Made by a program: the position numbers and the translations under genes
Part shown: in pieces, positions 27,172-33,331 of the stretch
Layout of the letters: every line of letters starts with the position of its first letter
Numbering within the stretch: the stretch's first letter is position 1
Source: Saprospiraceae bacterium
GTDB lineage: Bacteria; Bacteroidota; Bacteroidia; Chitinophagales; Saprospiraceae
Length of the DNA stretch: 64,000 bases
Direction: 5' to 3'
Assembly: GCA_022448945.1 (NCBI GenBank)
Contig: JAKVCV010000013.1
Span: 121,455-185,454 of the forward strand
Notes under the pieces: generated by a model
The model's database searches: none
Told to the model about the DNA's origin: nothing
What the model saw: only the letters and a program-made list of their open reading frames with translations

Positions 27172-28164
27172 ATGGCTGATAACTCTAATTTTATTGATTA
27201 TGTAAAAATTTGCTGTCGTTCAGGTGCTGGCGGCGCGGGCTCAGGTCATTTTTTTAGGGATAAATTCACATCAAAAGGAGGTCCTGATGGTGGTGATGGT
27301 GGGCGAGGAGGACACATTATAGTAAGGGGAAATGAACAAATGTGGACATTGTTGCACTTAAAGTATAAAAAACATGTTATTGCTTCAAATGGGCAACCAG
27401 GTGGAGGTAGTCGTTCATCGGGTGCAGAAGGTAAAGATATTTATCTTGATGTACCTCTTGGTACAATCATAAAAGATGTCGAAACAGGTGAAATAGAATT
27501 TGAAATCACTGAAAATGGCCAAACTGAAATTGTGACACCAGGTGGACGTGGCGGAAAAGGAAATTGGCATTTTAAGTCACCTACAAATCAAATACCAACA
27601 TATACATCTCCGCCAGGAGAGGGACTTAAAGAATGGAAAATATTTGAATTGAAGGTATTGGCAGATGTGGGGCTTGTTGGGTTTCCTAATGCTGGCAAAT
27701 CGACTTTACTATCTGTCCTTTCAGCGGCAAAACCCAAAATTGCTGATTATCCTTTTACTACCTTAGTGCCTAATTTGGGCATGATAAAATATCGCAATGA
27801 TCTTTCTTTTGTTATGGCAGATATTCCTGGCATTATTGAAGATGCGCACAAAGGTAAAGGGATAGGACATCGTTTTTTGCGTCACATAGAACGGAATGCT
27901 ACACTTTTATATATGATACCAGCAGATACAGATAATATCCGTAAAGATTATGATGTGTTGGTTAATGAACTTGCGCAATACAATAAAGAATTACTTGATA
28001 AGCCTCATATTCTGGCAATAACAAAATCAGATTTATTGGATGATGAACTTATAGAAATGATAAAACAAGATTTGCCAAAGAATATAGAAACAATATTTAT
28101 TTCTTCTGTTGCTCAAAAGGGACTTACTGAACTTAAGGATATGCTTTGGAAGTCTATAAATTAA
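27172..28164 (+). CDS. obgE: Obg-family GTPase (ObgE/CgtA)
   Basis: The 330-residue protein has the glycine-rich OBG fold first (residues 1-160: [43 protein letters not shown]). The GTPase domain follows, with G1 [10 protein letters not shown]2 region [11 protein letters not shown]3 DIPGI and G4 TKSD. ObgE is an essential GTPase that binds the 50S subunit and links ribosome assembly with the stringent response. The length is standard for Bacteroidota, which lack the C-terminal OCT domain of Firmicutes. The stop overlaps the stop of the convergent DUF5691 gene by 4 bases. Confidence 0.97.
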
Positions 28165-29696
28165 TCTTTCATATTTGCAATTTCCCATCTGAATTTTAGA
28201 ATAGATAAGAAGTGATCTATTTCTCTTTTCCATGAGTTCCAAGAATAACTTTGAATAGGCCAATTCTCCTTAATCCTTTCATATAATAATGGTGAAATGG
28301 CAAATCCGGCTCTTTTGAGAACTGTTTTTATACTCCAATGAAAAATATGTGCATCTTGCATTATTGTTTGTTGAATTCTGTAAATGACTTTTTCAGCAAC
28401 TGTATTATTCCATTTTTGATGTTCTGTTAATAAGAATGTTACAATAGGTTGATGATCTGAAAAAGTAGATTTATTATCTAATTTCAGATATTGCTCTGCC
28501 AAAATATTGAATAGGTTATTTGGTAAATTTTCGTATAGAAAGTCTATTGAAAAATCAAAGTTATTTTTTTGATTAATATTGTTTAAATAAAACTTGTGAA
28601 AGACAATTATCCATTCTTCGTCATGAAAATTTTTAGCAGCATGTGCAAAACCCAATAAAAAAATATTCCCCCATTTAGTTTTTGTTATATATTCTAATAT
28701 TTGCAACGGTGTCTTATTAAAGAATTTTGACCACCATTCAGGAGGAATTTTTGATATTATCTGAAAGAGTTGATTCGATTTGGAACCATAGTTTTTAAGA
28801 AATATCATGCGTGGTTGAATACCATTTTTTTTCATTTCAGCATTCGTCAAGGATGGCAATTCAATGTTTAATAATTCTGTTGTTGTGTTATAAGTTGCAA
28901 TTTGTGTCATAAGGGTTTTCATTCTACAGACTAGTCTAGATTGGGGTAAACATCCCAAAAGTGAGGCAGCATGCTTGCGAACTTCGTGTCTTGAATCATT
29001 TATTGCTTTTTCTAGGAATGGTTCATCGTTGTTCGTTAGGCTTAATTTTAGTGCTTTAATAAGTGCTGATCTTACCATAAAACCTTCATTTTCCCATACT
29101 TTTTCTATTAAATTGATGGCATGAGATGGTTTTGTTTTGTGAACTTTTTTGATATAACATACACGTTCATCTATCGATCCATAAAAAAAGATATTATCAT
29201 TGGTGCCGTTTTGATTTTTTACATAATTCCATTTGTCTGAAAACTGAGATAGCCAAACACCTCTTTCCCCAATACATTTTGTAATTAATATTTGTAAATT
29301 TGGGTAAGAACTACCTAAATCGAGTAATTCTGGAAGAAGATCGGGGGATACAAGCTTATTTTTTTTAGATAATTTTTCCAGAATTTCAGTTAAAAATTGA
29401 TCATTTTTATTTTTCAAAATATATTGCAGTTGTTTTTTTCTTGAGTTGTTGCAATATTGAAAATTTTCTTTTGGGCAAGCAACATTATTAGGGTAAATAG
29501 AATTTAATGGTAATTGTGCAATAGAATAAAGCTTACTTTGAATAGTAATAACTTTAAGTAACGTTTTTTCAGGTTCTTTTGATTGAGAGAGATTAATACC
29601 AAAAGCTTCAATTTTTTTTAAAAAACACGGATTTAATTCATTTCCTGTAATATTACCTACTAATACTTTTCTTACTAATTCTTCCCATGTATTCAT
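28161..29696 (-). CDS. DUF5691 family protein
   Basis: The 511-residue cytoplasmic protein begins [20 protein letters not shown] and has the landmarks of DUF5691: [32 protein letters not shown], then HEAT-like helices with [40 protein letters not shown], and a tryptophan-rich end with [18 protein letters not shown]. Function unknown. In many bacteria DUF5691 is encoded with a MoxR-type AAA+ ATPase, a VWA protein, DUF5682 and a SWIM zinc-finger protein. Both the ATPase (47803-48891) and VWA gene (2920-4053) are in this window but not adjacent. The 3' end overlaps obgE by 4 bases (convergent); 69 bases separate it from the upstream gene 29766-30611 on the same strand. Confidence 0.82.
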
Positions 29697-30611: not shown

Positions 30612-30894
30612 AGTTGATTTTATTTCTTTTTACTATATAAATATACGTGGTTAAATTAATGAAAAAAAGTAAGAATATTTAAACAAAACCATTTTGATTA
30701 TTATTTTGAATATAAATATTTTGGAATAGATAATCAATTTATTCGCATATGGTTTTTAAATCAATTAATATTGTTTATTTAAGACATGAAGTATGCTTTG
30801 TCTGAATTGAATTTTTTAAATTTTGTACACTATTGAACTCTAAAAAGGCGTTATTTTGTAGAGTGCACTTATGTATTATTTTAATTGTAATGAT

Positions 30895-31518
30895 ATGGAA
30901 CATAGGGTTATTTCTAATCCACTTTTTATTGAACAAGAAGCAGTTATTGTTAATCAATTGTTTGAAATTGGTTTAACTCTTTTTCATTTAAGAAAACCGT
31001 ATTCAACTAAGAAGGACTGCCAATTTTTTTTGAATAATATTCAAGAGTCTTTTCATTCACGTATAATAGTACATCAATATCCATCTTTAATTCCAGAATA
31101 TGGCTTGGCAGGTATTCATTTAAAAGAAGGTATAAGGCAGGAAATGTCTAAATCTGAATTGGACTATATGATAAAAGACTACAACTGTAAAAAACGCTTT
31201 ATAGGTACTTCCATTCATGAAAGAAAAACGTTGGTAAGTTTAAACATGAATTTTGATTATGTATTCCTTAGCCCTGTTTTTCCAAGTATTTCTAAGCCTG
31301 ATTACCTACCTTCAGAGGATTGGAGAATCAGTGATATAAATATACCTGTAAAATTAATAGCTTTAGGGGGGATAGATACCAATACGTTACAAAAAGCATA
31401 TAAAATGGGATTTAAAGAGGTTGCTTTTCTTGGAGCATTATGGCAGAATTCCAATACAGTTATCAAAAATTATTCAAAATTATGCAAACAAATGACACAA
31501 TTAGACCTTATGTCTTAA
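30895..31518 (+). CDS. TenI-like thiamine-phosphate-synthase-family protein
   Basis: The family in this phylum begins just before VISNP, so the ATG at 30895 (MEHRVISNPLF) is preferred over the in-frame ATG at 30871; length is then 207 residues. It is a TIM barrel of the ThiE/TenI superfamily: FHLRKPYSTKK, GLAGIHLKEGI, FIGTSIHE, FLSPVFPSISKPDY and LIALGGID phosphate loop. The Asn-Asp pair that ThiE uses is replaced by VHQYPS, which fits TenI (thiazole tautomerase) better than a true thiamine phosphate synthase. It starts a cluster with thiD (37-base overlap) and the ThiE fusion, supporting a role in thiazole phosphate processing. Confidence 0.82.
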   Translation: MEHRVISNPLFIEQEAVIVNQLFEIGLTLFHLRKPYSTKKDCQFFLNNIQESFHSRIIVHQYPSLIPEYGLAGIHLKEGIRQEMSKSELDYMIKDYNCKKRFIGTSIHERKTLVSLNMNFDYVFLSPVFPSISKPDYLPSEDWRISDINIPVKLIALGGIDTNTLQKAYKMGFKEVAFLGALWQNSNTVIKNYSKLCKQMTQLDLMS

Positions 31519-32249
31519 CAATTGCAGGTTACGATGGAAGTTCTGGTGCAGGACTTACTGCTGATATAAAAACAATGGAACAAATTGGGGTTTATGGTTT
31601 ATCTGTTTGTACGGCTATAACTGTACAACACGAGTCTGTATTTAAAACGGTTAAATGGATTGACATAGACCTTATAAAACAACAAATAATTTTACTCATA
31701 CGTAAATATCCTATTGACTTCTGTAAAATTGGGTTAGTTGAAAACGAACAAATACTTCAAACTATTATACATTTATTGACAGATAATTGTCCTGATGTAA
31801 AAATTGTGTTGGATCCTGTATTTAGTGCTTCTGCTGGGTTCAATTTTGATTATAATTTAGGTTATAATGATTATCAGAATATACTTAACAAAATTTATCT
31901 TTTGACACCTAATGCCCATGAATTAGCACAAATAGGAGAGGATTCTAAAGACTTAATGTTAACCGCTAAGAAATTGATGCAGTATTGTAATGTGCTTTAT
32001 AAAGGAGGGCATAATGAAAACCAAAAAGGTACTGATATCTTATTCGAGGGTTCAAATATTCATATTCTTGAACCTAAAGAACAAATATATTATGAAAAAC
32101 ATGGTTCAGGTTGTGTTCTTTCAGCTGCCTTAGTTTCCTATTTAGCTTTGGGGTGTGAATTGTTGGATGCATCCAAATCTGCTAAAGATTATATTTCTTC
32201 ATTTTTAATTTCAAATGATCGCCTATTGGGATATCATTTTTTGAAATAA
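31482..32249 (+). CDS. thiD: Hydroxymethylpyrimidine/phosphomethylpyrimidine kinase
   Basis: The track start (31440) lies deep in the preceding gene; the ATG at 31482 (MQTNDTIRPYVLTIAGYDGS) is more likely and gives 255 residues. ThiD phosphorylates HMP twice to HMP-PP, one of the two precursors of thiamine phosphate. Ribokinase-like signs are: LTIAGYDGSSGAGLTADIKTM (substrate and Gly-rich loop), GVYGLSVCTAITVQ, LDPVFSASAGF, LLTPNAHELAQI, and the anion-hole/catalytic HGSGCVLSAALVSYLALG near the C-terminus. It overlaps the TenI-like gene by 37 bases and is 23 bases upstream of the DUF3806-ThiE gene, so the three form one operon. Confidence 0.95.
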   Translation: MQTNDTIRPYVLTIAGYDGSSGAGLTADIKTMEQIGVYGLSVCTAITVQHESVFKTVKWIDIDLIKQQIILLIRKYPIDFCKIGLVENEQILQTIIHLLTDNCPDVKIVLDPVFSASAGFNFDYNLGYNDYQNILNKIYLLTPNAHELAQIGEDSKDLMLTAKKLMQYCNVLYKGGHNENQKGTDILFEGSNIHILEPKEQIYYEKHGSGCVLSAALVSYLALGCELLDASKSAKDYISSFLISNDRLLGYHFLK

Positions 32250-32272: not shown

Positions 32273-33331
32273 ATGGCCAGACAAAGTAACCACGAAGAAT
32301 CGGTATTATCAAAAAAACAAATTTCTTGGAAGAAAGATGCATTAGAACTAGCCATAGGATTGGTAGAAAAGTATTCAGAGATTGACTCGGACTATTTTTT
32401 TGAACCTAATTTATTAGATGCAGCCTTTGAAAATGTGATGAAACAAAATTGGTGGAAACGCCCTAGGAATTTCATTTTAATTACAGGCTTTGGTTATGCG
32501 CTAGGTCAATCACTTGTCGATAGGCTTGGTTTTGAATGGATAGTTTATAAAGACTATCAAGGAAAAGATATTGCGGTAAAACATCAAAAATCTGGAATTA
32601 TTTGTTTTCCCATATCTGCAGTCCGAAAGCGTATAAAAAGTAAAGATTATAGATTTATGGAGGTTTATACCTGTGATGTTGAAAGAGAATTGATTTCAAT
32701 AGCTAAAGAAATTGATAAATTGCAATTTATTTCACAGGGAAAGGATATTAATGCACATCTTAAATCAATAGAAAGCGCTTGTCAGGGAGGATGTAAATGG
32801 GTGCAACTTAGGTTGAAAAAGGTCTCATATGAGGAATACCTTGAAACAGCTATTGCAGCAAAAGAAATTTGTCAAAAACATCAGGTTAAACTTACAATCA
32901 ATGATAATACGCAAGTCGCACTTGAGTCAAAAGCTGATGGTTTACATCTTGGCAAACAAGATATGTCCCCTTCAGAGGCTAGAAAGATAGTTGGTGATAT
33001 TATAATAGGAGGGACTGCCAATACCTGGGAGGATATTGTATATTTAGCTGAACAAAAGGTTGATTATATAGGTCTTGGGCCATTTCGGTTTACTAATACT
33101 AAAGAAACACTTAGTCCTATACTTGGAATAGAAGGATATGATAAGTTATTGCAAAAAATGAAAATTGCTAAGATTGATATTCCAGTCCTTGCTATAGGTG
33201 GTATTGAGTTAGAAGATATTCAATATATAGTAGATATAGGGGTATGGGGTATAGCTGTTTCTGGTTTATTAGTTAATGCAAAAGATAAAAAGAAAGTTTG
33301 TGATTCTATTTTTAATCAATTGGTAAATTAA
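32273..33331 (+). CDS. thiE: DUF3806-ThiE fusion: thiamine phosphate synthase with extra N-terminal domain
   Basis: The 352-residue protein has two parts. Residues ~1-142 match the shape of DUF3806 (LITGFGYALGQSLVDRLGFE then WIVYKDYQGKDIAV and CFPISAVRKRI). Residues ~148-352 form a complete ThiE: LQFISQGKD, WVQLRLKKVSYEEY (QLRxK), TINDNTQVA (ND pair), DGLHLGKQDM, IGGTANT, DYIGLGPFRFTNTK and LAIGGIE. ThiE joins HMP-PP and thiazole phosphate to thiamine phosphate. A normal Bacteroidota ThiE starts right at LQFISQG; here no start codon is near that point, so the fusion is real at ORF level. DUF3806 has no assigned function. Last gene of the thiamine operon; no thiC, thiG or thiH in the window, so precursors come from elsewhere or from salvage. 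Confidence 0.88.
   Translation: MARQSNHEESVLSKKQISWKKDALELAIGLVEKYSEIDSDYFFEPNLLDAAFENVMKQNWWKRPRNFILITGFGYALGQSLVDRLGFEWIVYKDYQGKDIAVKHQKSGIICFPISAVRKRIKSKDYRFMEVYTCDVERELISIAKEIDKLQFISQGKDINAHLKSIESACQGGCKWVQLRLKKVSYEEYLETAIAAKEICQKHQVKLTINDNTQVALESKADGLHLGKQDMSPSEARKIVGDIIIGGTANTWEDIVYLAEQKVDYIGLGPFRFTNTKETLSPILGIEGYDKLLQKMKIAKIDIPVLAIGGIELEDIQYIVDIGVWGIAVSGLLVNAKDKKKVCDSIFNQLVN

Follow-up and report, generated by a model that had tools for sequence, protein, structure and literature searches.

What brings a DUF3806 domain and a thiamine phosphate synthase (ThiE) into one polypeptide, and what might the former do for the latter? ThiE couples HMP-PP to thiazole phosphate, thereby joining the two halves of vitamin B1 as thiamine phosphate; de novo thiamine synthesis depends on this enzyme. 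The question is raised by an open reading frame in the window (by which we mean the entire 64,000-nucleotide stretch that was analysed, from a genome of the marine genus Aureispira of the Bacteroidota), which a preliminary description, prepared from the letters alone, had interpreted as some 142 DUF3806-like residues continuing without interruption into an intact ThiE. This interpretation is borne out by profiles, by fold and by the uninterrupted frame:

32273..33331, + strand: DUF3806–ThiE fusion gene, 352 aa, ATG to TAA, a single open frame; 6 other Aureispira genomes hold a complete equivalent
32273..32695, + strand: N-terminal DUF3806 domain, residues 1–141 (PF12713, AlphaFold2 model, Foldseek match 3hlz)
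32480–32644, + strand: the Pfam DUF3806 match proper, residues 70–124
32711..33328, + strand: ThiE (thiamine phosphate synthase) domain, residues 147–352 (NF000736 and TIGR00693 passed; TMP-TENI)

Two known domains in a new arrangement

The ThiE models of NCBIfam match residues 149–348 of the fusion protein above NCBI's curated cut-offs (NF000736, 232.6 bits versus 227; TIGR00693, 163.9 bits versus 145.1), and the Pfam TMP-TENI match covers residues 151–330 (E 4.8e-50). This domain is as complete as a stand-alone ThiE, from which the fusion protein differs by about 141 extra N-terminal residues in the form of a separate folded domain. When the N-terminal 142 residues alone were searched, the proposed similarity to DUF3806 was recovered: PF12713 scored 44.3 bits (gathering score 21; E=1.5e-11; profile positions 22–77 of 86). 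DUF3806 was the sole Pfam match to these residues at E values up to 10, and there were zero NCBIfam matches at E up to 1.

The PF12713 match spans only 55 residues; that the DUF3806 domain extends over the full ~141 residues is supported by comparison of the predicted fold. The AlphaFold2 model of this domain (pLDDT 92.4; last helix, 129–141) aligns with PDB entry 3hlz over 137–138 columns (Foldseek: prob 1.00, E 2.4e-3, TMq 0.65–0.71). The latter, BT_1490 from Bacteroides thetaiotaomicron, is the only convincing match to the fold in the PDB, and we take its make-up to be DUF3805–DUF3806. Such proteins of Bacteroides and its relatives resemble the Aureispira protein in that their DUF3806, by profile and by fold, is joined to another domain; they differ in that their DUF3806 is C-terminal, behind DUF3805 and away from thi genes, whereas that of Aureispira is N-terminal and precedes ThiE. 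A similarity to the immunity protein Tsi3 has been reported for the N-terminal domain of 3hlz, which is the half other than DUF3806 (PMC3792639). A search of the PDB by sequence gave no convincing match, and a viral fold library gave none. Alignment of the domain with one Bacteroides DUF3805–DUF3806 protein was uninformative (E 0.071, from a thin alignment with Neff about 2), so membership of DUF3806 rests on Pfam and fold. A full-length model of the fusion protein (pTM 0.56) predicts the mutual packing of the DUF3806 and ThiE domains without confidence.

Across the aligned DUF3806 sequences, one Gly, one Trp, one Asp and one Pro are the only invariant residues; no binding site can therefore be named in DUF3806, and this pattern of invariance speaks against a conserved active site. 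In the diverged pair of genomes with the least saturated synonymous sites (G006/G001), codon alignment gives dN 0.12 and dS 0.84 for the N-terminal domain, and dN 0.11 and dS 1.17 for the ThiE part. Since dN is well under dS in each, both parts are under purifying selection, which on the N-terminal domain is close in strength to that on ThiE.

Conservation across the genus

In a search of 61 related genomes, the complete fusion, with no stops inside it, was found in seven Aureispira genomes including the window's own; the proteins of the relatives are 46–64% identical to that of the window. Every complete DUF3806-bearing copy in the genus is fused to ThiE (7/7), and the domain order that the preliminary description had proposed to seek elsewhere is thus present in each of these genomes. 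In an eighth genome (G005) the DUF3806 part stays open until the short contig that carries it ends; in all, DUF3806 exceeds the Pfam cut-off in seven Aureispira genomes besides the window's. In G002, the ninth species, thiE is free and overlaps thiD by ATGA, and a profile search of its genome gave no DUF3806 match. A further stretch of G007 that resembles DUF3806 (E 0.009, interrupted by three stops) was set aside, as it does not lie within a plausible gene.

These data dispose of two concerns about the frame. A single genome could not, by itself, rule out an assembly or sequencing error that conceals a stop and a separate start; seven assemblies, however, share the same frame without inside stops, among them that of the isolate CCB-QB1 and those of genomes assembled into 2 and 3 contigs; we give such an error a negligible chance. 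The alternative of a chance gene fusion, which had also been raised, is unlikely insofar as it means an accident limited to one genome, because the fusion is conserved across the genus. The DUF3806–ThiE protein is real, genus-level and selected, and DUF3806 is an unusual partner for ThiE.

The thiamine cluster

The fusion gene begins 23 bases past the stop of thiD and is the last member of a three-gene cluster:

30871..31518, + strand: TenI-like, divergent TMP-TENI family gene (PF02581, 2.5e-13), first of the cluster; position conserved in relatives
31440..32249, + strand: thiD-type HMP-P kinase gene (PF08543, 5.7e-52; TIGR00097, 3.9e-47, below its curated cut-off); same neighbour in relatives

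Those members of the genus whose flanks were read all carry the genes in the order tenI-like, thiD, fusion (or free thiE), and the free thiE of G002 shares with the fusion gene its position after thiD. The fusion is the sole full-strength TMP-TENI match in each genome, the TenI-like gene and others being far weaker. ThiG is present across the genomes of the genus and ThiC in 8 of 9; the window's genome has ThiG, ThiC and ThiS. From its family, from its standing as the only strong TMP-TENI gene and from the presence of ThiC and ThiG, the fused protein almost certainly makes thiamine phosphate: as from-scratch thiamine synthesis needs ThiE, the activity must come from the fused protein or from a shortened version of it.

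Several further observations concern the surroundings of this cluster. The TenI-like gene at 30871–31518 falls far under the ThiE cut-offs and may encode a thiazole tautomerase or have another role. A thiS–thiC pair with a TPP riboswitch upstream lies elsewhere in the same genome (L081:7527-9622, contig C56); Rfam gave no TPP riboswitch match in the window, where the thiamine cluster lies. In several Aureispira genomes, a transpeptidase/beta-lactamase-like gene (PF00905, 3.3e-38; L062:2794-3606) is found just ahead of the thiamine cluster, a place from which it is absent in the window. A DUF5691 protein (28161–29696; PF18944, 2.4e-78) adjoins obg and a peptidoglycan-binding-domain protein, and L063 has similar neighbours.

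The old thiE start codon

At the boundary between the two parts, two positions are of particular interest:

32696..32698, + strand: codon 142, TCA in the window and ATG in the other 6 complete fusion genes (codon alignment)
32657..32659, + strand: in-frame ATG, residue 129, 13 codons upstream of codon 142 and 21 residues before the ThiE core

The spacing between codon 142 and the ThiE core is that expected of a free ThiE start. Because the last helix of the N-terminal domain ends at residue 141 and codon 142 is ATG in six relatives, we infer that the join lies at the old thiE start, or within about a codon of it. The preliminary description had seen no start codon near the beginning of ThiE. 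This holds for codon 142 of the window itself; on the other hand, the ATG at 32657 and in-frame TTGs at 32690 and 32720 do lie nearby, and the other six genes have kept ATG at codon 142.

The context of these codons was scored with position weights for the 20 bases before a start codon. The training set comprised the window, G002 and a further contig from the window's genome, and the held-out AUC was 0.87 for ORF starts versus internal ATGs of other Aureispira loci. Five fusion genes were scored for an internal start, with the near-identical G004 left out. In 5/5, the ATG at the ThiE start is the top-scoring internal in-frame ATG of its own gene, and its context beats 89–100% of internal ATGs overall. 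These contexts also agree with the published initiation rules for Bacteroidota, namely A at -3, -6, -12 and -13 (PMC6847099). The evidence that codon 142 is used as an internal start in the relatives is only suggestive, given the K/E-rich linker and the common descent of the genes. As for the window, its ATG at 32657 has a moderate score (it exceeds 87% of the internal ATGs and 23% of the ORF starts in the window) and is a possible start of a short form; its TTG at 32690 scores poorly.

Distribution of the fusion and of DUF3806

No fusion was found outside Aureispira in the genomes searched. A pattern-based scan of the genomes of 84,980 species, of a kind that reaches close relatives only, returned Aureispira alone; the other searches for the fusion stayed within Bacteroidota samples. 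DUF3806 is itself rare in this phylum: it occurs in 6 of 396 evenly sampled genomes (the window's included) and in 3 of 349 genomes of an order sample, and in a family sample Aureispira alone passes the cut-off. Outside Aureispira it is found behind DUF3805 or stands alone, and its strongest scorers in Bacteroidota have DUF3805 in front. The N-terminal domain had no match among plasmids, and the literature searched yielded no mention of DUF3806 by name. A stand-alone DUF3806-like protein of another Bacteroidota genome (L073:3591-4151) has a lipoprotein-like signal at its start (MKNYLLLITLLILVSCKG); some DUF3806 proteins may thus be exported.

The suggestion that the fusion might tie DUF3806 in general to thiamine metabolism is so far unsupported. 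Around six other Bacteroidota DUF3806 genes (three of which encode DUF3805–DUF3806 proteins), tblastn detected no relative of thiE, tenI, thiD, thiC or thiS within ~4 kb, one of the six being on a 4.4-kb contig. The link between DUF3806 and thiamine is therefore an Aureispira-specific acquisition.

Origin and proposed role of the fusion

In a tree of ThiE, every fusion falls on one side of a branch with support 85/88, and G002 is the neighbour; one gain of the fusion thus suffices, and the tree gives moderate support to a single gain. We hypothesize that, in the ancestor of most of Aureispira, a cluster of tenI-like, thiD and thiE genes gained a DUF3806 gene between thiD and thiE. To judge from the anatomy of the gene and from the tree, the DUF3806 frame would then have run into thiE at its start or within about a codon of it. 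In the resulting single protein, a short linker would connect a folded DUF3806 module, probably without catalytic activity, to an intact ThiE barrel; the latter, from its family and as the only such gene, should retain the normal coupling of HMP-PP to thiazole phosphate. DUF3806 would most likely be an accessory module that sets ThiE's partners, assembly state or stability, an assignment that we make tentatively. Most members of the genus have preserved the old thiE start codon together with a start-like context, and free ThiE may accompany the fusion there; the window species lacks this codon and probably makes mainly the fused form. Taken as a whole, the explanation that a DUF3806 gene was inserted, was fused once in the genus and now serves a working ThiE as its accessory module is the one that we favour, as reasonably probable. 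Against the accessory module in particular stands G002, which has ThiE without DUF3806.

The main rival holds that DUF3806 retains an older, unrelated job and is merely attached, thiamine synthesis being independent of it. This idea fits the DUF3806 genes elsewhere in Bacteroidota, which are not near thi genes and are joined to DUF3805 or alone, and it fits G002's possession of ThiE without DUF3806; the start-like ATG between the parts in 6/7 genes would allow their separate production. Yet all seven complete copies retain the fusion, even where identity to the window protein drops to 46%, and that ATG is missing from the window species. We regard a mere attachment as doubtful. Slightly better placed, while still tentative, is the proposal that the cell makes and needs two products, the full-length fusion and a free ThiE begun at codon 142, and that their ratio matters, which is compatible with DUF3806 being an accessory module. 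It draws on the ATG at codon 142 in 6/7 genes, on the contexts of the five genes tested (best internal ATG in each, beating 89–100%, at the held-out AUC of 0.87) and on their agreement with the Bacteroidota rules (PMC6847099). It is opposed by TCA at this codon in the window species, where the TTG close by, at 32690, has a poor score; by the K/E-rich linker, which is A-rich anyway; and by the shared descent of the genes. A-matched controls were few (2 to 12 per gene).

A more specific proposal combines both themes: DUF3806 would be a small-molecule- or protein-binding regulator of ThiE, and one gene would yield both a regulated fused enzyme and a free one, the latter from an internal start since lost in the window species. 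This we consider improbable. It is very unlikely that the N-terminal domain is a second thiamine-pathway enzyme. Fusions of ThiE with other enzymes do exist, such as PRK09517 (ThiE–ThiD type) with its kinase part. This family, PRK08999 (Nudix type) and PRK02615 (N-terminal extension) likewise combine ThiE with another part in one polypeptide, and their ThiE parts match the fusion protein. None of the three, however, matches its N-terminal 142 residues, where the partner is DUF3806. This domain has no kinase or other enzyme profile match in Pfam or NCBIfam, thiD already adjoins the fusion gene, and no catalytic set is conserved across the DUF3806 family. We did not class the protein as a bifunctional ThiE with a second pathway enzyme, its N-terminal domain matching DUF3806 only.

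The conserved fusion of DUF3806 to an easily assayed enzyme offers a concrete handle on what this domain does to a partner protein. The locus is also a clear natural example of a gene that was inserted and then fused at a start codon, in which an unfused relative and varied states of the old start are found within one genus.
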